From Methylococcales bacterium (GTDB lineage: Bacteria > Pseudomonadota > Gammaproteobacteria > Methylococcales > Methylomonadaceae), in contig QVQF01000056.1 in the NCBI GenBank assembly GCA_003584895.1, positions 1 to 32,478 of the forward strand: a stretch of DNA of 32,478 nt. The letters are read 5' to 3'. A program made the translations under genes and the position numbers. Within the stretch, counting starts at the first letter, position 1. The number at the start of each line of letters is the position of its first letter. A model generated the notes under the pieces. That model was not told the origin of the DNA. It saw only the letters and a program-made list of their open reading frames with translations, and made no database searches. Positions 13,539 through 29,933 of this stretch are shown here, one piece after another.

Positions 13539-14255
13539 TTAGCGAGGAGTATTAATCTTGTCGACTAATTCTTCTTGAGTCAAATGACGGACATTTTCGC
13601 CTTTAATCATAAATACCAAATGTTCGCAGATATACCTAGCATGATCACCTACTCTTTCTAAAGCACGTACTGTAGTCAGTACATCTAAGAAACGAGTTAT
13701 GTTTCTTGGATCTTCCATCATGTGAGTAATCAACAACCTGACTATATTCTCATATTCACGATCGACTTTTTGATCACGCTCAGTAATAGCAGGAATTTCT
13801 TCTATCGACATTCTAGCAAAAGCATCCAAGGCATTATCTAACATGGCTTTGACTAACTCAACCATGCGATCCATATCATGCTTAGGCATACTATTGGTAT
13901 GACTTGACAACTTAACAGCCATTTCAGCAATACGCTTGGCTTTGTTACCGATTCTTTCTAGCTCATGGACGATTTTAATAACTGCAAGCAATAATCTTAA
14001 ATCGAAAGCGGTGGGCTGCCTGAGCGCCAAAATCTGAGTACATTCCAATTCAATCGCTACTTCAAGTATATCAATTTGGCTATCTTGACCAATGACAAGC
14101 TCTGCCTGTTCAACATTACCTGTAATAAGAGCTTCTATTGCTAATTCTAACTGTTGCTCAACCAAGCCACCCATGGCTAAGACTTTGTTGCGTACATCTT
14201 CCAGTTCTTTATTGAATTGTTCAGATATATGATGGCCTATTTTACTGTTATCCAT
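13539..14255 (-). CDS. phoU: Phosphate signalling regulator PhoU
   Basis: The 238-residue all-helical protein has two tandem PhoU repeats. The expected metal-binding helices include LERIGNKAKRIAEMAV near residues 95-110 and LERVGDHARYICEHLVFM near 198-215 (E/DxxxD-type motifs). PhoU links the Pst transporter to the PhoR/PhoB sensor system and limits phosphate uptake. AGGAG precedes the ATG, 13 nt after the pstB stop. It is the last gene of the pst operon, as in E. coli. Confidence 0.96.
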   Translation of the reverse strand: MDNSKIGHHISEQFNKELEDVRNKVLAMGGLVEQQLELAIEALITGNVEQAELVIGQDSQIDILEVAIELECTQILALRQPTAFDLRLLLAVIKIVHELERIGNKAKRIAEMAVKLSSHTNSMPKHDMDRMVELVKAMLDNALDAFARMSIEEIPAITERDQKVDREYENIVRLLITHMMEDPRNITRFLDVLTTVRALERVGDHARYICEHLVFMIKGENVRHLTQEELVDKINTPR

Positions 14256-14268
14256 TTTTTGCTCCTAA

Positions 14269-15099
14269 TTAGCCATACCGACCGGTAATGTAATCTTCTG
14301 TTTGTTTTTTACTAGGATTAGTAAACAACTCACTGGTTGTACCTATCTCTATCAATTCGCCCATATACATAAATGCCGTGTAATCAGATACACGCGCAGC
14401 TTGTTGCATATTGTGCGTAACGATAACGATGGTATATTTTTCTTTAAGCTCATTGATGAGCTCTTCAATTTTTAATGTTGAAATAGGATCCAGTGCAGAA
14501 GCTGGCTCATCTAACAATAATACTTCAGGCTCAATCGCAATGGCTCTAGCAATAACCAAACGTTGTTGCTGCCCACCTGACATACCCAAGGCATTATCAT
14601 TTAAGCGGTCTTTCATTTCATCCCATAACGCAGCACCGCGTAGCGCATTTTCAACCGTTTCTTCTAAGATATGTTTATCATTAACACCTTGAATTCTAAG
14701 GCCATAAGCAACATTCTCAAAGATAGACTTAGGAAAAGGGTTTGGCTTTTGAAATACCATACCGACTCGTCTACGCAATGCCGCGACATTGACAGACTTA
14801 TCATAGATATTTTCGCCATCTAGGAGAATTTTACCTTCAATCTTTGCGCTATCGACCAAATCATTCATGCGATTAATACAACGCAACAATGTTGATTTAC
14901 CACAACCACTAGGCCCAATATAAGCGGTTACTTTTTTCTTTTGCATTTCCATGTTAATGCCATGTAATGCTTGCTTCTCGCCATAAAATAAATTTAGATT
15001 TTCTACCTTAATACAAGTTTCACTAGGCGCTTGCGCTGCATCCTTGCCTCGTAATACAGAGCTCATATCAATTGAGTGTGATCTTATTTGTTGTGTCAT
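14269..15099 (-). CDS. pstB: Phosphate ABC transporter ATP-binding protein PstB
   Basis: The 276-residue ATPase energises high-affinity phosphate import. Walker A is GPSGCGKST (62-70), the signature is MSGGQQQR (173-180), Walker B is LLLDEP (194-199) and the switch His is in VTHN (H229). A longer ORF begins at 15153 inside pstA. The ATG at 15099 has GGAAGG upstream, overlapping the end of pstA, and gives the usual length, so I take it. Only 4 bp separate it from the pstA stop. Confidence 0.96.
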
Positions 15100-15103
15100 T
15101 TGT

Positions 15104-16759
15104 TTAACCTTCCAGTGCCCGATATTTTTCCCGCAAATTATTCCTGATGACAATTGCAGCCAAATTTAGGCCTATAATTACCAACACCAGCAATAATGCA
15201 GTCGCATAAACCAATGGTCTCGCCGCCTCAACATTGGGGCTTTGAAAACCGACATCATATATATGAAATCCAAGATGCATAAATTTTCTATCTAAATGCA
15301 AAAACGGAAAGTTGCCATCTAAGGGTAAAGTGGGCGCTAACTTAACGACACCCACCAACATTAATGGCGCGACCTCACCAGCCGCCCTAGCCACCGCTAA
15401 TATTAACCCCGTCATCATCGCAGGACTCGCCATAGGCAAAACCGTCAACCATAAGGTTTCAAGTTTAGTTGCACCTAAGGCCAAACTACCTTCTCGGATG
15501 GAACTTGGAATACGCGCCAAGCCTTCTTCTGTAGAGACAATAACAACAGGCAAGGTTAACAAAGCTAAAGTAATAGAGGCCCACAATAAACCAGGTGTAC
15601 CAAAAACAGGGGCAGGCGAAGACTCAGGGAAAAACAATTGGTCGATATTGCCGCCTAAAATATAAACAAAGAAGCCTAAGCCAAATACCCCATAAACCAC
15701 CGAAGGCACACCGGCAAGATTATTCACCGCTATTCTAATTAAACGCGTGATAAAGCCTTGTTTAGCATATTCCCGTAAATACACGGCAGCAATTACACCA
15801 AAAGGCGTCACTATCACCGACATCATCATAACCATCATGACAGTACCAAAGATAGCAGGGAAAATGCCACCTTCTGTATTAGCTTCGCGTGGATCATCGG
15901 TTAAAAACTCAACGACCTTATTTGCATAATGCAATATTTTATCCAGCAAACTCATGGTATTCGGTTGAAAAACTCTAACAACCTTCGACAACGGAATAAC
16001 CAGTTCACTACCGCTTTCGGTTTTAGCAACCAAACTATCACTACGTAACTTCTGATAGAGCTCTGTCAACTTAACTTGATATTGCTTATATTCAGCATCG
16101 AAGGCTGCTTTTTCAGTAGCAATGTCTTGTTTTGCTAAATCATCAAAGGCATTTTTCAACTCTAGTTTTCTTTGTTTAAGCCTTAGACGCTCTAAGCCAT
16201 AATTGATGGCTCCAACTTCCTTTTTTTCTATTTGCGTTATTTCTTTAAATATCGCTAAGGTCTCATCAATTTTCGTTTGCAATACCGGCCATGCTTGTTC
16301 ACCGCTAGCAATAGTGGCGCCGTTTTCTTTAACTTCGACTAACTGTCCGTAAAAGTTACCCCACTCCCGACGTTCTATAACGATCAAATCTTCAGGTTCA
16401 CTGTGAGCCTTTATATTGCGCTCCTGTATCCAGCGAAAATCTGTGCCCGTCACATCGCGATTACCGGTTTTAATTAAATACTGGACCAACGTATCTTCAT
16501 TATCCGCCATGATATGGCCAGTCGTTTTTGCCATAGCAGCCGGTGTAATACTGGTATCAACTTTTTCACCAATAATAATTTGAGGCTGTTTATTAAGTTC
16601 TTGATAACTAAATTGACTAACTTGATGCGGCCAGAAATGACCCACACCACGCCCGATTACCAAACCCAATACACCAACAACCATGATAAGACTTAAGCTG
16701 ACAGCTGCTGCATTCAGCCATATCCAAGGGGCGCCGCTTTTAAACCATAATCTAATCAT
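15104..16759 (-). CDS. pstA: Phosphate ABC transporter permease PstA, long form
   Basis: Membrane permease of the phosphate importer, 551 residues against about 300 in E. coli. One N-terminal membrane helix (about 14-36) is followed by a periplasmic, partly coiled-coil region (about 45-290) of the DUF3333 type. The usual permease core comes next, with an EAA loop near [20 protein letters not shown] (about 415-435). The extra region is known from other gammaproteobacterial pst operons. The start overlaps the pstC stop by 4 bp (ATGA), indicating coupled translation. Confidence 0.93.
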
Positions 16760-19035
16760 AATGAGCTATATTTTTCGCGTAAGCGCTGACGAATAATCTC
16801 AGCTAACGTGTTAAAAACAAACGTAAATACAAACAACACCAAGGCTGCTAAAAACAAGACTCGGTAATGAGTACTATCTACTTCGGATTCAGGCATTTCT
16901 ACGGCAATATTAGCAGCTAAGGTACGTAAACCTTGAAAGACGCTTAAATCCATTACTGGAGTATTACCCGTTGCCATTAAAACAATCATCGTTTCGCCAA
17001 CGGCACGCCCTAAACCTATCATGACCGCTGAAAAAATACCCGGACTGGCAGTTAACAACACGACTTTAATCATGGTTTGCCAAGGTGTTGCACCTAATGC
17101 CAAAGAACCCACTGTTAAATGCTTGGGTACACTAAAAATTGCATCTTCCGCAATAGAGAAAATAGTTGGAATAACCGCAAAGCCCATCGCTATACCCACG
17201 ACCAATGCATTACGTTGATCATAGCCTATGCCCCATTCACTTTTAAACCATTCACGTAAACTACCATTAAATAATAAAGCCTCTAAAGGTACGCTTACGC
17301 TTAAAGCAAACCAAGCACTTAATATGATAACGGGTATTAATAAAGCCGCTTCCCAACCATCAGGAATGCTTTCCTGTAGATCTTTAGGCAAATACTGCCA
17401 CGCATAGGCAAACAACATAACGCTTAAAGGGATAATCATAAACAAGGCAAACAGACCTGCCAAATGCTGCTCAATAAAAGGCGCTAGCCATAATCCAGCC
17501 AAAAATCCCAAAATAACGGTAGGCAAAGCCCCCATGAGTTCAATGGATGGCTTAACATATTGGCGCATTTTGGGTGTCATAAAGTAGGCGGTATAAATAG
17601 CGCCCATCAACGCCAAAGGCATAGCCATCAACATCGCATAAAAAGCTGCCTTTAGCGTACCGAATACCAAGGGTGTTAAGCTATATTTCGGCTCAAAATC
17701 ACTATTAGCTGAAGAAGACTGCCAAATATAATCTGGCTTAGGATAGCTTTCGTACCAAACTTCTTGCCATAACGAACGTAATGAAACTTCAGGATGTTGA
17801 TTTTCAACTTTCCAATAACTAATAAGATTGTCGCTAGATTGCACTAACAGTGCATTGGCTCTTGGCGAAATGGCTGCGTTAAGGGGACGTGAACTTCCGA
17901 TCCGATCTTTTATCATTTCCCTTTCGGAAGTTGAATGATAAATACCCATCATGCCGTCGGCATCTAAGGTTACAAAGCCTTTGCGACGCTGTTCTGGATT
18001 AATTGCGATTACGGCTTTATCTGAGACTTTAAAGGCTCTAACTTTTTGCATAGAAAAGTTATTTTGCTTGTCTCGCACCTTGCTCCATTGCGACACTAGT
18101 CCGCTGGAATCACCGATCATCAAGGAAAGATCGCCGTTCAAAAATACAGCGCTGGTCACTTTTAGTCCAGACTGAAGTATATCTTGCTCATTAACTAACT
18201 TAGGCGTGCTTTTGTCGACAATATCAAATAGAGCTAACTGACCTGCATTACCTAATAAATAAAGATTACGTTCTTCTTTATCAATTAAAATATCGACCAC
18301 TTCAGCTGCAGAATAATCTAGCACCGAATCAGTTCGAGTAATGGTCGCCTCATCTGCAAACAAGGACTTTTCTTTTTCAAAATGCACCAAACGAATTTTT
18401 TCTGCACTACTTACCACGATAGTACTGGTATCTTCACCGATTTTAACGGCAATTTTTTCCAACGCAGCACCTGAGACATCAACTAGCAATGGCTCTTCGC
18501 CCATCGGATAACTTAAAACTGGGGTGATTTTCCTAATGTTATTGGGATAAGTGACCTTATATTGATGCTTAACGATGATGGCCTTACCATCAGATAAGCC
18601 ATATATAACAGCCCCTTCGTTATTAGGACTACCCTGCGCAAAGCTCACAATATGTGCGCCTTCGGGTATTTTTATGGCTTGAGTTAAAATGTTTTTCCCG
18701 GTTGCCACTTCGAAGAAAACAACCTGCCCGGCATCAGTAAATCTGACGGCGACTTCGTTTTGCTCTTCAACGCCTAACAATACGGTTTTACCTAAACTAG
18801 CTTCAGGCACTTCATATTGATTAACCGATTCAGCAGTTGCTGAAATGAATAAGGGATAAACCACATACAACAAATAGAAGAAAATCAAGGCAATAGCAAC
18901 AATAACACCTAGACCACCGATAACAACACCATAGCGAGCTATGACATCTTTTATCAGTCGCCAACGTTCATGGGCGCTACCCGATGTTTTTGTTATAGCT
19001 GAGGAATATTTAGTTTGACTGTTTATTTCAGACAT
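16756..19035 (-). CDS. pstC: Phosphate ABC transporter permease PstC, long form
   Basis: At 759 residues it is more than twice E. coli PstC. After one membrane helix (about 37-62) comes a large periplasmic insert (about 65-440) with repeating beta-type segments such as VVFFEVATGKNIL, NLYLLGNAGQLALFDI and KGFVTLDADGMMGIYH, suggestive of a beta-propeller. The permease core follows, with the EAA-type loop [20 protein letters not shown] and RAVGETM near the C-terminus. This enlarged PstC pairs with the enlarged PstA as in other marine and environmental gammaproteobacteria. The propeller reading is inference from pattern only. Confidence 0.92.
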   Translation of the reverse strand: MSEINSQTKYSSAITKTSGSAHERWRLIKDVIARYGVVIGGLGVIVAIALIFFYLLYVVYPLFISATAESVNQYEVPEASLGKTVLLGVEEQNEVAVRFTDAGQVVFFEVATGKNILTQAIKIPEGAHIVSFAQGSPNNEGAVIYGLSDGKAIIVKHQYKVTYPNNIRKITPVLSYPMGEEPLLVDVSGAALEKIAVKIGEDTSTIVVSSAEKIRLVHFEKEKSLFADEATITRTDSVLDYSAAEVVDILIDKEERNLYLLGNAGQLALFDIVDKSTPKLVNEQDILQSGLKVTSAVFLNGDLSLMIGDSSGLVSQWSKVRDKQNNFSMQKVRAFKVSDKAVIAINPEQRRKGFVTLDADGMMGIYHSTSEREMIKDRIGSSRPLNAAISPRANALLVQSSDNLISYWKVENQHPEVSLRSLWQEVWYESYPKPDYIWQSSSANSDFEPKYSLTPLVFGTLKAAFYAMLMAMPLALMGAIYTAYFMTPKMRQYVKPSIELMGALPTVILGFLAGLWLAPFIEQHLAGLFALFMIIPLSVMLFAYAWQYLPKDLQESIPDGWEAALLIPVIILSAWFALSVSVPLEALLFNGSLREWFKSEWGIGYDQRNALVVGIAMGFAVIPTIFSIAEDAIFSVPKHLTVGSLALGATPWQTMIKVVLLTASPGIFSAVMIGLGRAVGETMIVLMATGNTPVMDLSVFQGLRTLAANIAVEMPESEVDSTHYRVLFLAALVLFVFTFVFNTLAEIIRQRLREKYSSL

Positions 19036-19075
19036 GAGCAGCTTATAGAAATTAAATGTGACAATGATAACCCAA

Positions 19076-19112
19076 GTTTCAAAAAAAACGGCTGAGAATC
19101 ATGATTTGAAAC
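19076..19112 (-). other. Stem-loop in the pstS-pstC intergenic region
   Basis: The 202-bp gap between pstS and pstC holds an 8-bp inverted repeat, GTTTCAAA (19076-19083) and TTTGAAAC (19105-19112). A T8 run on the minus strand lies inside the loop, and a further 6-bp hairpin is at 19143-19156 (ACGATA/TATCGT). Such structures could stabilise the pstS transcript or attenuate read-through, giving more binding protein than permease. This is inference. Confidence 0.4.
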
Positions 19113-19237
19113 CCAACCGTAATTACTTGACTGCCTAGATTAACGATAACTATCGTCGAGGGGATACATCATTAATCAGACTAACATCCTTGTTAATAAC
19201 GCTTCCATTATTGTTAAAACGACTTACATAAAGCGAT

Positions 19238-20221
19238 TTACTTAAGAGTAGTCAATACTTTATCAACAACTTTAGCTGGTAATGGAATATATCCATCTTT
19301 TATTACAACTTGCTGACCAATTTTAGATAAAACCATTTTCATGAATTCATTTTCTAAAGGTGCTAAAGGTTGGTTAGGTTTTTTGTTGATATAAATGTAC
19401 AAATAACGTGTTAAAGGATAACTGCCATTAATAGCATTTTCTGGTGTAGCTTCAACAAACGCTTGACCTTCTTTTTTAGCTAAAGGAACCATTCTTACAC
19501 CTGATGTGGTGTAGCCCATACCTGAATAACCGATACCGTTAGCTGAAGAAGTAACTGATTGAACAACAGAAGCAGAACCTGGTTGTTCGTTTACGTTACT
19601 TTTAAAGTCACCTTTACATAAAGCGTGTTCTTTAAAATAGCCGTAAGTACCTGATACTGAATTACGTCCGTATAACTGGATGCTTTTAGAAGCCCATGCT
19701 GCTACACCTGCATCACCCCAGTTATCAATGTCTGCAGCATGACCACATTTACGAGTAGACGAAAAAATAGCGTCAACTTGTGGAAGACTCAAACCTTTAA
19801 CGGGGTTATCTTTATTAACCATAACAGCCAAGGCATCAATCGCAACTGGAACAGCGGTTGGTTTGTAACCATATTTATCTTCGAAAGCGACTAATTCGTC
19901 ATCTTTCATTTCACGGCTCATAGGACCTATGTTTGAAGTACCTTCTGTTAAGGCTGGTGGCGCAGTTGAAGAACCTGCTGCTTGAATTTGAATATTAACG
20001 TTAGGGTATTCACGGTTAAACTCTTCAGCCCATAACGTCATTAAATTTGCTAATGTATCAGAACCAACACTCGACAAATTACCAGAAATTCCATTTACTT
20101 TTTGATACGCAGGTACACCAGCATCAACGGTTTGTACTGCTGTTGCCGTAACACTGAACATTGCTGATGTAGCAAAACCCATTGCTGCAATCAACGATTT
20201 AGTTTTAAAAGATATTTTCAT
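19238..20221 (-). CDS. pstS: Periplasmic phosphate-binding protein PstS
   Basis: The 327-residue protein has a signal peptide cleaved near ATA-VQ (residue 28). The mature part has the PstS phosphate-loop features: [31 protein letters not shown], and [17 protein letters not shown] with the Ser/Gly phosphate contacts. It delivers phosphate to PstCAB. It is the first gene of the operon and has its own Pho-box promoter. The gap to pstC with hairpins suits higher expression of this component. Confidence 0.96.
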
Positions 20222-20274
20222 TATGAAATCTCATGTTGGTTGTTGTGAAGCTATTATGCAATCCTAAGATTACA

Positions 20275-20308
20275 AGAATATGGATGTTATATGACAAAAC
20301 CATGACAT
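20275..20308 (-). promoter_or_regulatory. Pho box and -10 of the pstS promoter
   Basis: On the minus strand ATGTCAT-GGTT-TTGTCAT (20308 to 20291) is two direct 7-bp repeats with an 11-bp period. It matches the PhoB consensus CTGTCAT-N4-CTGTCAT at 12 of 14 positions. Exactly 10 bp downstream is TATTCT (20280-20275), where a PhoB-dependent -10 is expected. The start would be near 20267, about 45 nt before the pstS ATG. Confidence 0.85.
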
Positions 20309-20352
20309 TACTATTTTATTTTAATAGCTAGACTCTGATGACACAGTCAAAA

Positions 20353-20871
20353 TCAAATTTCTTCATCTAATAAAGATTTTGCGTAAGTTATAGATAACAA
20401 TTGCGCGCAGCCAGGCTCTAAGGTTGACCAATCCTCAGGCATCTTCAAACGCACTAGCGATGAAGTTGGCAATAATTTATTGGTTTCTGGCAAACGTGAA
20501 GCGCCCACCAAATAAATCAATAAATCTTCCAAATCAGGATTGTGCCCCACCAGCAAAACTCTAGCAGCGTTAATTGGACACTCTGCTAATACTGATTTTA
20601 TAGCCTCAAGTCCGGATTGATACATGCGCTTATCTTGCATAATATCTAAACCTTCTACCGCCAAAGCTTTATGGGCAATATTTGCAGTAGAAATTGCTCT
20701 TTTTGCGGGGGAACTTACTAGATAATCAGGCAATATATGCTGTTGTTGCATCCACTCGCCCATGCGTTGCACTGCAGTTTTGCCGCGTTTTTTTAATGGC
20801 CGGTCAAAATCATCAACTGCAAGATCGCGGTCAGATTTTCCATGCCTTAGTAAGCATAATTCTTTACTCAT
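20353..20871 (-). CDS. SixA-like phosphohistidine phosphatase
   Basis: The 172-residue histidine-phosphatase-superfamily protein has the RHG catalytic motif (LLRHGKSDRD, residues 9-11) and the second catalytic His in VGHNPDLEDLL (about H110). Its small size matches SixA, which removes phosphate from histidine phosphotransfer domains. A GTG start three codons upstream is possible; the ATG at 20871 has GGTG at proper spacing. It sits immediately upstream of pstS and divergently from the CHAD gene. SixA-like and CHAD proteins are often neighbours, so polyphosphate or phosphate signalling is a reasonable context. Confidence 0.88.
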   Translation of the reverse strand: MSKELCLLRHGKSDRDLAVDDFDRPLKKRGKTAVQRMGEWMQQQHILPDYLVSSPAKRAISTANIAHKALAVEGLDIMQDKRMYQSGLEAIKSVLAECPINAARVLLVGHNPDLEDLLIYLVGASRLPETNKLLPTSSLVRLKMPEDWSTLEPGCAQLLSITYAKSLLDEEI

Positions 20872-21026
20872 ATTAAACACCGATATATTTAAAAAGCTGC
20901 CAAGATTAAAACTAGTCTACGATAGTCTTTGATTGTTACACTGTCATTAAATATTAATACGAGCTTGTTATTATTACAAAATGAATCGTTTATCCAATTC
21001 CTATCACACCATCAAGCGTCTTTAAT

Positions 21027-22544
21027 ATGTCACTACCATTTAACTTTATAACCAGTTTAAGCGCCAATAAATTTATTGCTAAGCTAAGCGACAAAGCGAC
21101 TGTGCAATTGGTTTCTAAGCAATATTCGTTAAAAACATATTACGACAGCTTTGATTGGCGACTTTACGCAAAAGGTATTAGTTGTGAATTTAATCGATCA
21201 AAATCAAGCTCAAGCCTTATATTAAGAACCCTAAGCGATGATTCAATGATTGCTAGCGTTGATCTTAATGAAGTACCTAGTTTCAGCCATCAACTACCAT
21301 CAGAAGAAATCCGACAACTTATTGAGCCCTTATTAGAGTGTCGTGCCTTACTCGCCGTATGCAATCTGGATTATGAAACTTATAATCTCAACATTCTCAA
21401 TAACGATGAAAAAATAATCCTCCGACTCATCATAGAGGAGCACGATCTTTTTGATAACCGCGTTATCCTACTGCCCATTAAAGGTTACGATAAAGCAACT
21501 GAACATACCATAGAACTACTCACTAAAGATTTTGGCTTAATTCCTACGCATAAACCGCTACTATTAACCGCGTTACACATGCAAGGTCGAAAACCCAATG
21601 ACTATAGCTCAAAATTAAATGTCAACCTAGACCCTGATATGCGCGCAGATATAGCTACTAAATATATCTACAGCCATTTACTTAAAGCTATTAAAGATAA
21701 TGAACAGGGCACCATTGCTAATACTGATAGTGAATTTCTACATGATTTTAGAGTGGCTGTACGCAGAACGCGTGCAGGACTAAATCAACTTAAAAATCTA
21801 TTACCTGAAAACACCAGCCAATACTACACTGATTTCTTTTCCTGGTTAGGGCAAGTCACTGGCCCGACTCGAGATTTAGATGTTTATCTGCTCAATTTCA
21901 CAGATTATAAAAACAGTCTTCCAGAATCAATGCGTGATGATCTGCATCCACTTTATGACTTTTTATTGTCTAAACAAAACAACGCTCAAAAAGAGCTGGC
22001 TACAAAGTTACGTTCAAATAGATATTTAACCACTATCTCTGAATGGGAGCAGTATCTTAAAGCCCAAGCACCACTGACCCCAGTTGAGCCCAATGCCAAG
22101 CTGAGCATTAAGCAACTGGCTGATCGACGAATTTGGAAAAATTACAAAAGGGTATTACAAGAAGGTGATGCTATCAACGAGCAATCACCTGCTGAAGCTT
22201 TACATGACCTAAGAAAATCATGTAAAAAGTTACGTTATTTAATGGAATTCTTCCAAAACCTTTATCCTGAGCAGCAAATAAAAGTCTTCATTAAAAATCT
22301 CAAAGGCTTACAAGAAGTCCTTGGCGACTTTCAAGACTATGCCATTCAGGAACTGACACTAAAGCAGTTCGGAGAAGAAATGTTAGCTAATCAGGTCCCA
22401 GCCAATACGCTACTGGCCATGGGTGTGCTCATTCAAAATCTAGATACCCTTAGAACTAAGTCGCGTGATGACTTTTCTGCTAAATTTATACATTTCAAAC
22501 ACGAAGATAATCAAGACGCACTTCAATCTTTATTAAAAGACTAA
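21027..22544 (+). CDS. CYTH-like plus CHAD domain protein (polyphosphate-associated)
   Basis: The N-terminal part (about 25-185) resembles a degenerate CYTH/triphosphate-tunnel domain (YYDSFDWRLYAKGISCEF, LILRTL, spaced Glu/Arg). The C-terminal part (about 205-490) is a CHAD domain with its basic helices: HDFRVAVRRTRA (239-250), GPTRDLDVYL (279-288), HDLRKSCKKLRYLMEF (393-408) and LKGLQEVLGDFQD (425-437). CHAD domains bind polyphosphate through such conserved His/Arg/Lys. The CYTH part lacks a clear ExExK motif, so catalysis is doubtful. It lies divergent to sixA beside the pst operon. It is probably a cytosolic polyphosphate-binding protein. Confidence 0.88.
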   Translation: MSLPFNFITSLSANKFIAKLSDKATVQLVSKQYSLKTYYDSFDWRLYAKGISCEFNRSKSSSSLILRTLSDDSMIASVDLNEVPSFSHQLPSEEIRQLIEPLLECRALLAVCNLDYETYNLNILNNDEKIILRLIIEEHDLFDNRVILLPIKGYDKATEHTIELLTKDFGLIPTHKPLLLTALHMQGRKPNDYSSKLNVNLDPDMRADIATKYIYSHLLKAIKDNEQGTIANTDSEFLHDFRVAVRRTRAGLNQLKNLLPENTSQYYTDFFSWLGQVTGPTRDLDVYLLNFTDYKNSLPESMRDDLHPLYDFLLSKQNNAQKELATKLRSNRYLTTISEWEQYLKAQAPLTPVEPNAKLSIKQLADRRIWKNYKRVLQEGDAINEQSPAEALHDLRKSCKKLRYLMEFFQNLYPEQQIKVFIKNLKGLQEVLGDFQDYAIQELTLKQFGEEMLANQVPANTLLAMGVLIQNLDTLRTKSRDDFSAKFIHFKHEDNQDALQSLLKD

Positions 22545-22674: not shown

Positions 22675-23691
22675 ATGGCTATAATTAATTTTCCTGAACT
22701 AGAGCAACTGCAGCGTGTCATTGAGAAATTAGGTGACCGTGCCCATATCGAAATCATTGAACGAATTGCTTTTAAAGGCCACGAATTTCCTATTCATTGC
22801 ATCACCTTGGGGTCTAATCGACCTGACGTGCCAGTCTTAGCCTTTTTTGGCGGCGTACATGGCTTAGAAAAAATAGGCTCTCAAGTTATCTTGTCCTATT
22901 TAGAAACAATCAGCCATTTACTAGACTGGGATCAGGAATTCTTAGCACGACTGGAAAAATCTCGACTTATTTTTATACCGATCGTTAATCCAGTGGGCGT
23001 ATACATGGGAACCCGTTGCAATGGTAATGGTGTTGATCTCATGCGTAATGCGCCTATAGAAGGCGAAGGCGTTACTCGCATCTTTAGTGGCCAGTGTATT
23101 TCGCCTCATCTACCTTGGTATCGAGGCAATCCACTTAATATGGAAAAAGAAGCCCTAGCAGTATGTCGCGTAGTTGAGCAACAGCTTTTTAATGCGCCCT
23201 TGTCCATTGCTTTTGACTTACATTCAGGTTTTGGACTTAATGATCGCTTATGGTTTCCTTACGCATCTTCTAAAACCCCCTTCGCCTTTCTTGCGGAAAT
23301 TTATGCTTTAAAAGTTCAACTTGATCGTTGCTATCAACATCATATTTATAAAATCGAACCCACTTCTCAAGAATATATGATCAATGGTGATTTGTGGGAT
23401 TATTTATTTGATGAATTTAAATTACAAAACAATGAAGAACGTGTATTTTTACCGCTAACCCTAGAAATGGGTTCATGGCTGTGGCTACGTAAAAGTCCTC
23501 TACATTTATTTTCAAGACACGGCTTGTTTCACCCGCTATTACCACATCGGCAGCAACGAATATTTAGGCGCCACTTCGCGTTATTTGATTTCTTACATCG
23601 CAGCCTTTTATATCCTGAAAAATGGACACCGCTTACGCCAGAAAAAAAACAGACTTTTTATCAAAAAGCGCTGGAACTTTGGTATGAATAA
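22675..23691 (+). CDS. M14 family zinc carboxypeptidase, cytosolic
   Basis: The 338-residue protein carries the M14 metal site HxxE (H62 and E65 in GGVHGLEKIG) and the third ligand His183 in FDLHSGFG. Substrate-binding Arg124-Asn125 are in NGNGVDLMRN, and the catalytic Glu is E264 in LTLEMGSW. All residues needed for activity are present. There is no signal peptide, so it acts in the cytoplasm, unlike secreted digestive M14 enzymes; it could trim peptides or peptidoglycan fragments. Its end overlaps the start of an alpha/beta hydrolase gene by 8 bp, so the pair is co-translated. Substrate unknown. Confidence 0.85.
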   Translation: MAIINFPELEQLQRVIEKLGDRAHIEIIERIAFKGHEFPIHCITLGSNRPDVPVLAFFGGVHGLEKIGSQVILSYLETISHLLDWDQEFLARLEKSRLIFIPIVNPVGVYMGTRCNGNGVDLMRNAPIEGEGVTRIFSGQCISPHLPWYRGNPLNMEKEALAVCRVVEQQLFNAPLSIAFDLHSGFGLNDRLWFPYASSKTPFAFLAEIYALKVQLDRCYQHHIYKIEPTSQEYMINGDLWDYLFDEFKLQNNEERVFLPLTLEMGSWLWLRKSPLHLFSRHGLFHPLLPHRQQRIFRRHFALFDFLHRSLLYPEKWTPLTPEKKQTFYQKALELWYE

Positions 23692-24448
23692 CGCAACAGA
23701 AAAACACTGGATACTGCTCAGAGGTCTTGCTAGAGAATCTAAGCACTGGGGTGCTTTTATTCCAAAGCTGCAGGCAATGTTTCCTGATGCGAAAATCACT
23801 TTATTAGATTTACCAGGTACCGGCTGCCTTTATCAAGAAACCAGCCCAAATACCATTGCACAAATTACACATCAGGTTCGTGCTCAGGCTCTTGCTAAAG
23901 GTTGCTTACAACAACCCGTTAATTTACTAGCACTATCACTAGGCGCCATGGTGGCTTGGGAATGGATGCAAAACTACCCAGAAGATATAGCTACGGCTAC
24001 ACTCATAAACACCAGCTTTGCCAGTTTAAGTCCTTTTTATCAGCGACTGCGCTGGCAAAGTTATCATCGCTTTATTAATCTGGTGCTTACAAGCAATGTA
24101 AGACAACGAGAAGAGAAAATATTACAGTTAACCAGTAATAATTCCGATGCCAATAGCTCCGTTATATTGGATTGGGAAAAAATTCAGTCTGAACAGCCGA
24201 TTAGCTTTAAAAATAGTCTTCAGCAAATTCTCGCCGCAGCCAGCTACAAACCTAGCGATAAAAAAACGTCCCACCCTGTTTTATTACTTAATAGCCTACA
24301 AGATCGACTGGTATCGCCGCGTTGTTCAATGGCAATACAGCAACAGTGGCAACTAGAACTCCGCAGCCATGCTAGTGCAGGGCATGATTTAACCCTTGAT
24401 GCTGGCGATTGGGTGGCTATACAGCTGATGGATTGGCTAAGTAAATGA
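23684..24448 (+). CDS. Alpha/beta hydrolase
   Basis: The 254-residue protein has the fold pattern WILLRGLARESKHWGAF at the start, the nucleophile elbow ALSLG (S85), an acid in NSLQDRLV (D207) and the His of AGHDL (H234), so the catalytic triad is complete. The first elbow residue is Ala rather than Gly. The longer upstream ORF start (23585) runs through the M14 gene; the ATG at 23684, overlapping the M14 stop by 8 bp, fits coupled translation. It is an esterase or a related enzyme; the substrate cannot be read from the sequence. Confidence 0.85.
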   Translation: MNNATEKHWILLRGLARESKHWGAFIPKLQAMFPDAKITLLDLPGTGCLYQETSPNTIAQITHQVRAQALAKGCLQQPVNLLALSLGAMVAWEWMQNYPEDIATATLINTSFASLSPFYQRLRWQSYHRFINLVLTSNVRQREEKILQLTSNNSDANSSVILDWEKIQSEQPISFKNSLQQILAAASYKPSDKKTSHPVLLLNSLQDRLVSPRCSMAIQQQWQLELRSHASAGHDLTLDAGDWVAIQLMDWLSK

Positions 24449-26460: not shown

Positions 26461-27501
26461 TTAAAGCTTAATATGCTCAACGTTGACAGTATTCCAAATG
26501 GACTCAATAAAATCTGCATCCATTTTAGGCATATCATCTAATATCCATTGCACTAATACTTTGGCAATATTTGGATAACTAATTTGTATAGCCTTATCAT
26601 CCTGTAACCAATGTTTAATAACAGCGGCATCCAGATCATTCATGGTGTGACCATAGCCCAATTGCTTTAAGGCCGCAGCATTAGAAATTTGCTCCATTTG
26701 TGCATGTAATGGTTTAGCGAGAATTTTTTTACCTAGTTGCAAGGCTTCACTAGCCAGCTCAAAACCCGCATTGCTGATAATGCCGGCGCAATCATATAAA
26801 TCTTTTTGAAAGGCATCACGAGAAAGAGGGTTAACCACTATGTGCGCAAAAGTAGATTCGACCACCACAGGCGCATAAACATGAAAACTAAAATCGGTAA
26901 AGGGAGCTAATAACGCTACAACTTCGTTCTGATCTTCAAAAGGCAGATAAACAATGATTTTATTTCTAATGATACTTTTAGGCGTTTCAGGCGTATCAAT
27001 TACAGGCGGCAAAATAGGCTGACCAAAGTGATGCCAATGTAAACCTACGCCAGTATGAGCAGGCGCAAAATATTTCATGACCTGATTAGCAATAGGGTCA
27101 GAACCTGCTCTTGGAATATCATGATTAAACGCATATTGATGACCGATACCTAACACCGCTCTTTTTTGTTTTCTACCAGCCCAGGAAGTAACCGGTTCAA
27201 AATCACTGATGACTAAATCATAGCCACTTAAATCTAATGATTTAATATCACTCAATAAGGTACGCGGCTTCGCTTCTAAGGCAGTTTTTAAGTAATTCAC
27301 CTGACCTTTATGAGTATTAAAGGTTAAGCCTGTACGTACTTGATAATCTTTAAATATCGCCATATCAAAATACTGCTCTGCGGGGCGCCCCGTAAATTGA
27401 AAGTCAACATCAATACCTGCCGCATACAGTTCTTTAGCCATCACTCTAGCACGGGTGATATGACCGTTACCGGTTCCTTGTACGCCATAAAAAATCTTCA
27501 T
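26461..27501 (-). CDS. MJ1255/VC2487-family glycosyltransferase (GT28-like)
   Basis: The 346-residue protein begins YGVQGTGNGHITRARVMA, the glycine-rich acceptor-side loop of MurG/GT28-like GT-B enzymes. It has the donor-site segment ISNAGFELASEAL (242-254) followed by LAKPLHAQMEQ. These match the MJ1255 family of putative glycosyltransferases. GT28 also contains diacylglycerol galactosyl/glucosyltransferases, which fits a lipid acceptor but does not prove it. There is no membrane segment. Its ATG overlaps the stop of the PAP2 gene by 4 bp, so the two act as one unit, downstream of a Pho-box promoter. Confidence 0.85.
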   Translation of the reverse strand: MKIFYGVQGTGNGHITRARVMAKELYAAGIDVDFQFTGRPAEQYFDMAIFKDYQVRTGLTFNTHKGQVNYLKTALEAKPRTLLSDIKSLDLSGYDLVISDFEPVTSWAGRKQKRAVLGIGHQYAFNHDIPRAGSDPIANQVMKYFAPAHTGVGLHWHHFGQPILPPVIDTPETPKSIIRNKIIVYLPFEDQNEVVALLAPFTDFSFHVYAPVVVESTFAHIVVNPLSRDAFQKDLYDCAGIISNAGFELASEALQLGKKILAKPLHAQMEQISNAAALKQLGYGHTMNDLDAAVIKHWLQDDKAIQISYPNIAKVLVQWILDDMPKMDADFIESIWNTVNVEHIKL

Positions 27502-28016
27502 ATTTGTCCTAAACTAAAAATTGCAATGCTGATGCCTAACAAAGAACCGGCCAAAATATCTGTAGGGAAATGCACACCCAATACCACTCGCGAGCAACCC
27601 ACGAAAAATGCCCAAACATAAAGCAGCATCATTAAGGGAGGGAAGTAATAACTGAGTAAGGTTGCCATCATAAAGGCAGCCGAGGTGTGCCCAGATGGAA
27701 AGCTGAATTGATCAGAGGGAATAATAACACTATGGAAGTTTTCTAAGGCAGCCTGAGGACGATTGCGCTTTAAACCTTTTTTAAGTATCAAGTACACTGG
27801 CCGCTCTATTAGAAAAGCCAATAAAATAGCTTGTAAGCAACCACTACTAGGACCTTCATAGGCATACAAAATGGCTGCAATTAAGACATAGAAGAGTCCG
27901 TCACCCGTTTTTGATAGGTAGCGACAAAACTCTATTAGAGCGCTGTGTACACGCCTATTAAATACCCAAGTAAAGATAAAAACATCATATTTATGAATGG
28001 ATGCGAACAGTTTCAC
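27498..28016 (-). CDS. PAP2-family membrane phosphatase
   Basis: The 172-residue integral membrane protein has the three PAP2 phosphatase motifs: KKGLKRNRP (79-87), PSGH (107-110) and SRVVLGVHFPTD (142-153), with Arg86, His110, Arg143 and His149 intact. Such enzymes remove phosphate from phosphatidic acid, phosphatidylglycerophosphate or undecaprenyl diphosphate at the membrane. The start is GTG with AGGAG six nt upstream. A leader of about 92 nt follows the Pho-box promoter. It is coupled by ATGA to the glycosyltransferase gene, suggesting that its dephosphorylated lipid product is the next enzyme's acceptor. Confidence 0.9.
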   Translation of the reverse strand: MKLFASIHKYDVFIFTWVFNRRVHSALIEFCRYLSKTGDGLFYVLIAAILYAYEGPSSGCLQAILLAFLIERPVYLILKKGLKRNRPQAALENFHSVIIPSDQFSFPSGHTSAAFMMATLLSYYFPPLMMLLYVWAFFVGCSRVVLGVHFPTDILAGSLLGISIAIFSLGQI

Positions 28017-28115
28017 AGCTTACTCCTAGACTAATTAGGGCGCTGCAATGACGGCGATTAGCGCTTTATATAACTAGCGTTTCCCACAGTCCTTCTACAG
28101 CTCTTTCATAGTAAA

Positions 28116-28149
28116 GAATAAAACTGTACTGTGACAGTTACATGAACGT
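28116..28149 (-). promoter_or_regulatory. Pho box and -10 upstream of the PAP2-glycosyltransferase operon
   Basis: On the minus strand CGTTCAT-GTAA-CTGTCAC (28149 to 28132) matches the PhoB consensus at 12 of 14 positions, with one perfect half-site. Exactly 10 bp downstream is TATTCT (28121-28116), the same hexamer at the same distance as in the pstS promoter. This shared geometry makes chance less likely than for either motif alone. Confidence 0.65.
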
Positions 28150-28351
28150 TGCTTTAAGGTTAGATGACAGCGCAAGAAAATTCTGGCAACTAGACTGGGT
28201 CATATTTCAGTCTAAACTCTTATTTACTGGCTTACTTTAAGTTGTTTTCAACTTCAATATATTTTTGCTACGCTGATTAACATTTTCTCATCGCCGTAAG
28301 TTTTAAATTTCGGCACTTACTTCTCTTTAGCAAACGAAATTTGTCGCCCGC

Positions 28352-28383
28352 TTGTCATAGTGCTGTGTTATAAAGAATACAAT
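28352..28383 (+). promoter_or_regulatory. Weak Pho-box-like site upstream of the porin gene
   Basis: TTGTCAT-AGTG-CTGTGTT (28352-28369) matches the PhoB consensus at 11 of 14. TACAAT (28378-28383), a near-consensus -10, follows after 8 bp instead of the usual 10. TTGTCA alone could serve as an ordinary -35. An equally scoring site at 3726-3743 is placed where it cannot work, so scores of 11 are not decisive. Confidence 0.35.
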
Positions 28384-28409: not shown

Positions 28410-29933
28410 ATGAAGTACCCTGCTCCACGCCCACCTTATTGCCATAAAGTATTCCCTGCAAATAAACAGCCCAGTCTATTTAACTGGAACCATTATTTTA
28501 AAATCCTGCTATTGGCTTTCACCAGCCTATCACTTACTGCGCAAGCTGAAAATTATCCTAATTTAAATACTGATGGCGAGTTTTCGTTGATGAGTGCATT
28601 GGCAAACCATGGTTGGCATAACTTGCAAGATGAACGCTGGAATCTCTACTCACAAGGGACTTATATAAGCAGCTATCATCCTGCATTCCCAGCTGCTTAT
28701 ACTAATTTAAATGACACTCCCAACTCATTGTCACCTAATGCAGAATTGGGCTTTACGGGGAGCGTGACTTTTTACGCCGGTGTTAATGCGTGGAAGGGCG
28801 GTGAGTTTTATTATGCCCCAGAGATGATCTCAGAACTGCCCTTTTCAGGACTCAAGGGCATAGGCGGCAGTATTCAAAACTTTGAACTGCAAAAAAATGG
28901 TACTCAAAGTTCTAGCTGGTATACCTCGAGAGCTATTTACCGACAAACCTTCTCCTTGGGTGGCACTGAAAATGCGGTTAATTCTGGCCCTATGCAATTA
29001 GCAGGAACAGTATCTAGTCGCCGTTTTGTTTTTACTGCAGGATCTTTTAGTATTCTTGATATCTTTGACAAAAATACCTATGCAGGGGATTTACGTCGGC
29101 AATTTTCAAATATGGCCTTTTTAACGAATGCTGCCTATGATTTTGGTGCCGATGCCCGTGGCTATACCTCGGGTTTTGCCGGTGAGTTATATTTTGATAA
29201 CTGGGCCTTACGCTTTGCGCGGATTGCTGGCCCCTATGATCCGAATGAGATGTCTAGGAATCTTAATATATGGAATTATTATGGTGATCAAGTAGAAATT
29301 GAACATAAGCATGTACTTTATGGACTAGCAGGTGCGATAAGGATTTTAGGCTACAGAAATCGGGAAAGATCAGGGAGCTATAGTGACGCCATCTCAGTTT
29401 TTCAGACTGATTCAACTAAGAATGCAACGACTTGTACGACTTTTAATTATGAAAACCCCAATGCTAATGCCCCAGATCTTTGTTGGGCAAGAAAAGCCAA
29501 TATTAAGATGGGTATTGGTATCAATATGGAGCAGAGTATTACCGAGGATATAGGTACTTTTTTTAGGGGTATGTATTCTGATGGAAAAACCGAAGTTTAT
29601 TCTTATACTTCAGCGGATCGATCTCTGTCTTTTGGTGGCATTATGAAAGGTACCCGTTGGGGGCGAGCAAAAGATTCTATAGGTCTAGGTTATGCACAAA
29701 GTTGGATTTCCAAAGAGCACGTCGCCTACCTGAATATGGGTGGCATAGATGGTTTTATTGGTGATGGTAAGATAAGTTATAAACCTGAACAGGTTGTTGA
29801 TGTTTATTATCAATGGCATGCCTTGCCATCGACTTGGATAACGCTGGATTATCAACATTTAGCTAATCCGGGCTTTAATGCCGATCGTGGCCCCGTCGAT
29901 ATTTATAATGGCCGCGTGCATTTTGAGTTCTAA
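28410..29933 (+). CDS. OprB-like carbohydrate-selective porin
   Basis: The 507-residue outer-membrane protein has an unusually long n-region (26 residues) before the hydrophobic signal (about 30-43), with cleavage near AQA-ENY. The mature part begins with WNLYSQGTYISSYHPAF, the OprB-type first strand. It continues in alternating aromatic strands such as LGFTGSVTFYAGVNAW and ends in the OprB-style WITLDYQHLANPGFNADRGP and a C-terminal Phe (VHFEF) for outer-membrane insertion. It would form a 16-strand barrel for sugars or other anions. The gene is single and divergent from the PAP2 operon. No Shine-Dalgarno sequence is evident. Confidence 0.85.
   Translation: MKYPAPRPPYCHKVFPANKQPSLFNWNHYFKILLLAFTSLSLTAQAENYPNLNTDGEFSLMSALANHGWHNLQDERWNLYSQGTYISSYHPAFPAAYTNLNDTPNSLSPNAELGFTGSVTFYAGVNAWKGGEFYYAPEMISELPFSGLKGIGGSIQNFELQKNGTQSSSWYTSRAIYRQTFSLGGTENAVNSGPMQLAGTVSSRRFVFTAGSFSILDIFDKNTYAGDLRRQFSNMAFLTNAAYDFGADARGYTSGFAGELYFDNWALRFARIAGPYDPNEMSRNLNIWNYYGDQVEIEHKHVLYGLAGAIRILGYRNRERSGSYSDAISVFQTDSTKNATTCTTFNYENPNANAPDLCWARKANIKMGIGINMEQSITEDIGTFFRGMYSDGKTEVYSYTSADRSLSFGGIMKGTRWGRAKDSIGLGYAQSWISKEHVAYLNMGGIDGFIGDGKISYKPEQVVDVYYQWHALPSTWITLDYQHLANPGFNADRGPVDIYNGRVHFEF

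Follow-up and report, generated by a model that had tools for sequence, protein, structure and literature searches.

A Pho-box-controlled PAP2 phosphatase and MJ1255-family glycosyltransferase gene pair as a candidate glycolipid branch in Gammaproteobacteria

The question raised by this locus is what a Methylococcales bacterium would make, when phosphate is scarce, with a two-gene operon that encodes a PAP2-family phosphatase and an MJ1255/VC2487-family glycosyltransferase (GT) behind a Pho box. Glycolipids that replace phospholipids are one bacterial answer to scarce phosphate, and not all of the glycosyltransferases for them are known. The operon lies in a stretch of 32,478 nucleotides (the window; contig C22 in a draft genome of 2.6 Mb), whose nearest matches with a named source were metagenome bins of Methylococcaceae and Crenothrix polyspora with a GT identity of 95-97%. 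A preliminary description had proposed that PAP2 makes diacylglycerol (DAG) from phosphatidic acid and that the GT glycosylates it, in a two-enzyme route distinct from the PlcP phospholipase and Agt glycosyltransferase. Our analysis favours, at a probability of about 0.6, a Pho-regulated DAG-glycosyltransferase branch that would be fed by PAP2 from phosphatidic acid and/or by PlcP from phospholipid. The coordinates of the features are collected in Table 1; below, L, G and C numbers are our handles for loci, genomes and contigs, f and g numbers for families and genera, and c numbers for protein clusters.

Table 1. Features of the PAP2-GT operon and of the promoter used for comparison (window positions)
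Feature	Position	Strand	Remarks
PAP2-family integral-membrane lipid phosphatase	27498..28016	-	172 aa, GTG start
MJ1255/VC2487-family GT-B glycosyltransferase	26461..27501	-	346 aa
AGGAG ribosome site of the PAP2 gene	28027-28023	-	
Double Pho box, four 7-bp half-sites with 11-bp period (CTGTCAT, CCTTAAA, CGTTCAT, CTGTCAC)	28131..28170	-	consensus, matrix, conservation
TATTCT, -10-like element	28115..28120	-	starts exactly 10 bp past the last half-site
Pho box of the pstS promoter	20291..20308	-	comparison; TATTCT 10 bp downstream

The two genes overlap by the four bases ATGA, as had been claimed, and the letters can be read directly from the sequence at 27498-27501. The promoter had been described as a 12/14 Pho box followed by TATTCT exactly 10 bp downstream, as at pstS; this was borne out, and the array is larger than claimed. 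The box first noted, CGTTCATGTAACTGTCAC at 28131-28148, matched 11/14 positions of strict CTGTCAT repeats and 12/14 when the last base of each repeat may be C or T, the pstS box likewise scored 12/14, and, as is usual for a Pho box, two 7-bp repeats with a spacing of 11 bp precede a -10 element by about 10 bp. Two extra half-sites stand in register beyond it (CTGTCAT at 28170-28164 and CCTTAAA at 28159-28153), and the full array, with ctaa, gcaa and gtaa between its four half-sites and then ten bases before TATTCT, runs from 28170 down to 28115. The strict consensus by itself was not decisive, with 5 window matches at no more than 3 mismatches versus 1.9 expected. A chance Pho box was ruled out by its deep conservation and by Markov shuffles of the 300 upstream bases, of which 0/1000 reached 12 for the box of the pair and 0/1000 for that of pstS. 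Of 69 distinct upstream regions, among them that of the window, 65 could be fitted with four half-sites plus the -10 element (the promoters of L074, L076, L090 and L097 did not fit), and TAnnCT was present in 65/65 fitted promoters, the -10 element having been part of the fitted matrix. With a matrix from the 58 fitted promoters of non-close relatives, the window site scored 57; elsewhere in the window no place exceeded -11, and in 100 Markov windows none exceeded -3.7. The 58 promoters are orthologous, and the score is thus a measure of conservation and no independent test of the motif.

Conserved pairs with Pho boxes upstream, for which the preliminary description had suggested a search, were found across genomes. 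PAP2 adjoined the GT in 86/98 loci (two collections, with duplicates between them), and the array was conserved in the close relatives that keep the pair, where its absence would have counted against the preliminary description. In a class sample of 370 genomes, 11 had a strong GT match and 10 of these had the pair, once with a split PAP2 (G420) and once with a split GT (G107), while the eleventh has PlcP where PAP2 would be. The GT of G107 (contig C12, L108) and the PAP2 of G420 (contig C20, L105) each lie in two frames, by sequencing error or decay. In a phylum sample of 397 genomes the GT was found in 36, and PAP2 was upstream of it in 29/29 examined loci, which include the window's own and three known from an earlier search. 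The best box within 250 bases before PAP2 in these 29 loci scored 10, 11, 12 and 13 of 14 in 4, 11, 12 and 2 loci, respectively, so 25/29 reached at least 11/14, as compared to 3% of Markov controls at this score and 19% at 10 or more. In Aeromonas caviae (NZ_AP026896, L235), too, the GT follows PAP2, and the array has four half-sites. The overlap or near-abutment of the genes and their very strong adjacency across the sampled Gammaproteobacteria argue against separate roles, in which the GT would glycosylate DAG, PAP2 would salvage phosphate from lipid phosphates and only the regulation would be common to both; we consider such a division very unlikely, although several GT-bearing relatives without PAP2 speak for it.

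The phosphatase was confirmed as a PAP2 enzyme with all catalytic motifs. It matched PF01569 with 90.7 bits (cut-off 27.2) and carries KX6RP (K79, R86, P87), PSGH (107-110) and SRX5HX3D (S142, R143, H149, D153), whose residues do not vary among 40 aligned sequences, of which the window's is one, except S142 (at least 90%). The AlphaFold model (mean predicted local distance difference test score, pLDDT, 92) is a multi-helix membrane fold, and its best matches were LpxE (6ebu, template modelling (TM) score 0.82) and PgpB/YodM of Bacillus subtilis (5jki, TM 0.79). By sequence, too, no solved structure is closer than LpxE (E 1e-21). This double resemblance could point to lipid A remodelling, i.e., an LpxE-like 1-phosphatase with a GT that adds a sugar to the position set free or to a different lipid of the envelope. 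Against it, the curated NCBIfam LpxE model gave 16.3 bits versus a cut-off of 177, and such a phosphatase would not be replaceable by PlcP. Moreover, LpxE works in the periplasm, whereas a soluble GT-B enzyme that draws on nucleotide sugars would be cytoplasmic, and we regard the lipid A explanation as highly doubtful.

The glycosyltransferase was correctly assigned to the MJ1255 family with a GT-B fold: TIGR00661 gave 231.9 bits (cut-off 195.9), PF13528 (Glyco_trans_1_3) gave 117 bits (cut-off 25), 26 residues were invariant in 45 aligned sequences and the GT-B model had a mean pLDDT of 92. The label GT28-like, which had also been given, is weak. Neither PF06925 nor PF04101, the domains of monoglycosyldiacylglycerol (MGDG) synthases and GT28 enzymes, was found in the GT to E 0.1 in Pfam; its Pfam family is called 'Glycosyl transferase family 1'. 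Judged by their descriptions, the 50 PDB matches listed for the model resemble GT1 enzymes, with TM scores (query) of about 0.46-0.63. What stands of the label is that the GT profile is nearer to a UgtP-like protein (a weak link, probability 24%, E 8e-4) than to Agt; against the GT4 Agt homologue of the same genome, hhalign gave a probability of 0.2%, and the GT is not a GT4 Agt.

The proposed role in lipid remodelling is favoured by the linkage of the GT to plcP and, in some relatives, to OlsB/OlsA-like genes, but not as a replacement of PlcP-Agt. At nine distinct loci plcP lies on the same strand upstream of the pair, within 1.8 kb of the GT. It stands before a GT without PAP2 at L052/L053 (1 bp gap), at L107 (45 bp; another family of the class) and at L089 (614 bp), whose genome (G015) has an additional PAP2-GT copy elsewhere, and it is convergent with and adjacent to the GT at L065, L068 and L082. 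Several clusters also carry c6 and c7, whose best NCBIfam matches are OlsB and OlsA, below the curated cut-offs. A single gene separates the pair of Crenothrix RSM_CP1 (L098) from agt and a UDP-glucose dehydrogenase gene upstream, and on plasmid pAT3 of Aureibacter tunicatorum (L236, Bacteroidota) a PlcP-like stretch precedes a GT of 35% identity; that stretch seems to span the record start and is missing from the distributed gene table. The GT was present in 41 of 61 relatives, 39 of them with a strong PlcP and the two exceptions 80% and 83% complete. Among relatives with a completeness of 90% or more and a contamination of 5% or less, strong PlcP was found in 32/32 with the GT versus 2/12 without it (Fisher 3e-8, uncorrected for ancestry like the other co-occurrence counts). 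Genus g8 has three genomes with the GT, PlcP and OlsB together and two with none of them, and in the class sample PlcP was found in 9/11 strong-GT genomes versus 98/359 others.

As far as gene order and presence can tell, one GT seems to have two exchangeable partners, PAP2 and PlcP. Five close relatives have a lone GT directly behind the Pho array, PlcP in the genome and no PAP2 match genome-wide at E 0.001, and four of the five are 98-99% complete. GT loci without PAP2 include L069, L081, L082 and L083, with plcP adjoining the GT at L082. On a GT tree, PAP2 presence must have changed at least 6 times and plcP adjacency at least 8 times; the tree was made by a quick method with 123 rows, has several long branches and leaves out L107, whose GT is truncated at the end of its contig. 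The pattern that PAP2 is missing only where PlcP is present is consistent with exchange, yet it is weak evidence by itself, given that PlcP occurs in most relatives in any case. DAG would be the simplest acceptor if the two enzymes are alternative partners, and it is proposed here because PAP2 and PlcP share it as one plausible lipid product.

Several observations weigh against a DAG branch fed by either enzyme, or at least narrow it. Outside the window's order the association with PlcP is weaker (5/7 versus about 98/358, p = 0.02), and the ancestry left in the Fisher value and the counts bears on all co-occurrence; the label PlcP itself is based on similarity and context, with no dedicated PlcP model among the family hits. 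PlcP was queried in 35 GT genomes, made up of 31/36 of the phylum sample plus G107, G420, G181 and G360, whose PlcP state was known. A strong match was found in 18/35 and not in the other 17/35, so the plcP link is not universal; the latter include 9/9 genomes of family f173 and G539, which has a 49-residue fragment. In the phylum sample itself 15/36 GT genomes were without strong PlcP, five previously known states included. The promoter is also less certain at a distance: when 16 distant stretches were each tested alone, eight had a best box that more than 5% of shuffles reached (L097, L101, L102, L103, L105, L159, plcP of L107, and L108 with 51/1000), and the weak boxes include those of PAP2 in G039 and G051 (family f4) and of plcP at L107. 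The nearest GT folds among the listed matches act on small molecules and are not MGDG synthase or MurG, and the PAP2 is nearest to LpxE in sequence and fold, which makes phosphatidic acid just one candidate substrate. In Vibrio cholerae, the source of the namesake VC2487, ornithine lipids were reported at low phosphate (PMC13157583, PMC12186959), and in the available text of these two papers one has the word glycolipid a single time, in the title of a reference, and the other does not have it. One of the two studies used phospholipid and ornithine-lipid databases, according to its available text, and glycolipids may therefore not have been sought.

The genomes without strong PlcP bear on two further readings. 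PAP2 adjoined the GT in 11/11 examined loci of the 15 genomes of the phylum sample, and likewise in G107 and, with a split PAP2, in G420. The PlcP-free two-enzyme route of the preliminary description is partly favoured in other Gammaproteobacteria because 17/35 GT genomes are without strong PlcP, but not in the window's genome. That a PlcP-independent, PhoB-switched PAP2 plus MJ1255 glycolipid pathway is widespread in Gammaproteobacteria, lineages that lack PlcP among them, with PlcP repeatedly swapped for PAP2 as the DAG feed, is a tentative suggestion to which we would give somewhat less than an even chance. The same genomes would also suit a different substrate, namely PAP2 as an undecaprenyl-pyrophosphate phosphatase and a GT that puts a sugar onto undecaprenyl phosphate or a similar carrier, towards a surface glycan free of phosphate that would be made at low phosphate. 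In this direction point the top NCBIfam match of PAP2, the undecaprenyl-diphosphatase SepP (65 bits, far below the cut-off of 250), and the gene for a VTT-domain protein, described below, that many relatives carry beside the pair or beside a GT without PAP2; some DedA proteins flip undecaprenyl phosphate. LpxE-type PAP2 enzymes can dephosphorylate undecaprenyl pyrophosphate; the substrates given for Aquifex LpxE in the available part of PMC6581854 are lipid A, undecaprenyl pyrophosphate and phosphatidylglycerophosphate. The replacement of PAP2 before the GT by PlcP, which is not expected to yield undecaprenyl phosphate, does not fit this explanation, nor does the linkage to plcP and OlsB/OlsA-like genes; no glycan cluster was noticed in the neighbourhood map, where most neighbours are unannotated. 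We judge the undecaprenyl carrier unlikely.

In the window's genome the pair is not the sole route, because plcP and agt, which had been suggested as genes to look for, were both found on other contigs; as this cell's route instead of PlcP-Agt, the pair was not borne out. The PlcP-like metallophosphoesterase (C88:7371-8129) is 50% identical to the PlcP of L107, has a best box of 12/14 (1/1000 shuffles) and is divergent from an OlsF-like ornithine-lipid synthase gene that runs off the contig (489 bits against a curated cut-off of 620). The GT4 Agt homologue adjoins LplT on C34, and its own box was rejected as a firm Pho target (10/14, 248/1000 shuffles). OlsB (E 1e-30) and a PF06925 protein (E 0.001) were sought in this genome and neither was found. 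The DAG-forming candidate that adjoins the GT here is PAP2, while PlcP takes this place in some relatives.

Taken together, the favoured DAG branch might work as follows. At low phosphate PhoB would bind the double Pho box and switch on the two-gene operon. PAP2 in the inner membrane would dephosphorylate phosphatidic acid to DAG, and the GT at the cytoplasmic face would glycosylate this DAG with a nucleotide sugar as donor, to yield a glycolipid without phosphorus. In genomes with plcP, this one among them, PlcP may yield DAG from existing phospholipids as a second feed to the same GT, and Agt, where present, may make a glucuronate lipid. We infer the induction, both substrates, the sugar and the product from gene context and homology.

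The pair lies near a phosphate island with phoU, pst genes and genes for a histidine phosphatase and a CHAD-domain protein (13539-22544). At 22675-24448 (+) are genes for an M14 zinc-peptidase and an alpha/beta hydrolase (c4 and c3), whose homologues are paired in 11 mapped neighbourhoods, several of them adjoining plcP or OlsB/OlsA-like genes, and these two genes possibly belong to the same lipid island. A VTT-domain membrane protein (PF09335, 57.6 bits; c11), which we take to be of the DedA/SNARE-associated type, is encoded on the opposite strand, adjoining the pair or a GT without PAP2, at L015, L021, L024, L026, L030, L047, L049, L058, L074, L092 and others; tblastn found its gene in 26 loci of the set, and a part as lipid flippase partner is conceivable. 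PhoH, which follows the GT in close relatives only, was rejected as part of this promoter system (best box 8/14, reached by 899/1000 shuffles). A divergent OprB-type porin gene (28410-29933, +) has a weak Pho-like box (28352-28369, +), which was not accepted as a firm Pho target (11/14, 40/1000 shuffles; 9 to 11 in six relatives).

Pho-controlled glycolipid remodelling is already known, and a PAP2-MJ1255 enzyme set for it is not described in the open-licence PMC literature found; in this literature we found no paper on the PAP2-MJ1255 pair, none on the MJ1255/VC2487 family name and none on SepP, while a chromatin immunoprecipitation peak was reported for VC2487 in the available part of one source. 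In favour of the branch proposed here, Pseudomonas aeruginosa without plcP still makes some glucuronic acid diacylglycerol (GADG), from which the authors infer another DAG supply (PMC8528852, available part), and a plcP-agt mutant of Methylosinus lost GADG and kept MGDG, from which a further GT was inferred (PMC9239053, available part, as in all statements from it here). According to the latter, PlcP occurs throughout type I and II methanotrophs, type Ia members have no agt beside plcP, and another putative DAG glycosyltransferase exists in Crenothrix and Methylobacter tundripaludum. The MJ1255 GT is probably not the enzyme meant there because the plcP cluster of M. tundripaludum SV96 holds a UgtP-like GT and the pair lies elsewhere; this identity was rejected, as plcP there precedes LplT- and UgtP-like genes. 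The PAP2-MJ1255 module is a specific candidate for a GT of this kind in type I methanotrophs and other Gammaproteobacteria, and it yields a clean prediction on the source of DAG in cells without PlcP. Its context suggests a function for the MJ1255/VC2487 family and the PlcP-free reading, if true, would give the family one.

As compared to known systems, the window GT is a near full-length member of TIGR00661, whereas its function is proposed here from gene context and none is assigned in the sources seen. The PAP2 shares its modelled fold and the three motifs with LpxE and B. subtilis PgpB (YodM), but it is 28-29% identical to the two solved enzymes in the fold alignments, lies far below the curated cut-offs of both LpxE and SepP, and adjoins a GT under a common promoter. 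The plcP-lplT-UgtP-like cluster of type Ia methanotrophs is similar in that a putative DAG glycosyltransferase is tied to plcP in Methylobacter and Crenothrix (compare PMC9239053). At L200-L203 (SV96 and three named genomes, L201-L203 compared by eye) plcP is followed by an LplT-like gene, split in L202, and a UgtP-like gene, and no such cluster was found within the stretch fetched from Methylomonas koyamae SM2 (L204); the family scans used the SV96 GT and, for LplT, the copy of the window's genome. The difference is that the SV96 GT of this cluster is an MGDG_synth protein (PF06925, 95 bits; L200) and the MJ1255 GT of SV96 is separate, in a PAP2-MJ1255 pair at L088. The closest parallel in design is PlcP-Agt remodelling as in Agrobacterium, Pelagibacter, P. 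aeruginosa and Methylosinus trichosporium, with Pho-box control, DAG as the proposed intermediate and a GT gene that adjoins the gene of a DAG-forming enzyme, a role proposed for PAP2 here; plcP is, moreover, present in the window's genome and beside the MJ1255 GT in a number of relatives. The window system differs from it in its MJ1255-type GT-B enzyme, which has no profile match to the genome's own GT4 Agt, and in the usual partner of this GT, which is PAP2 and not PlcP.

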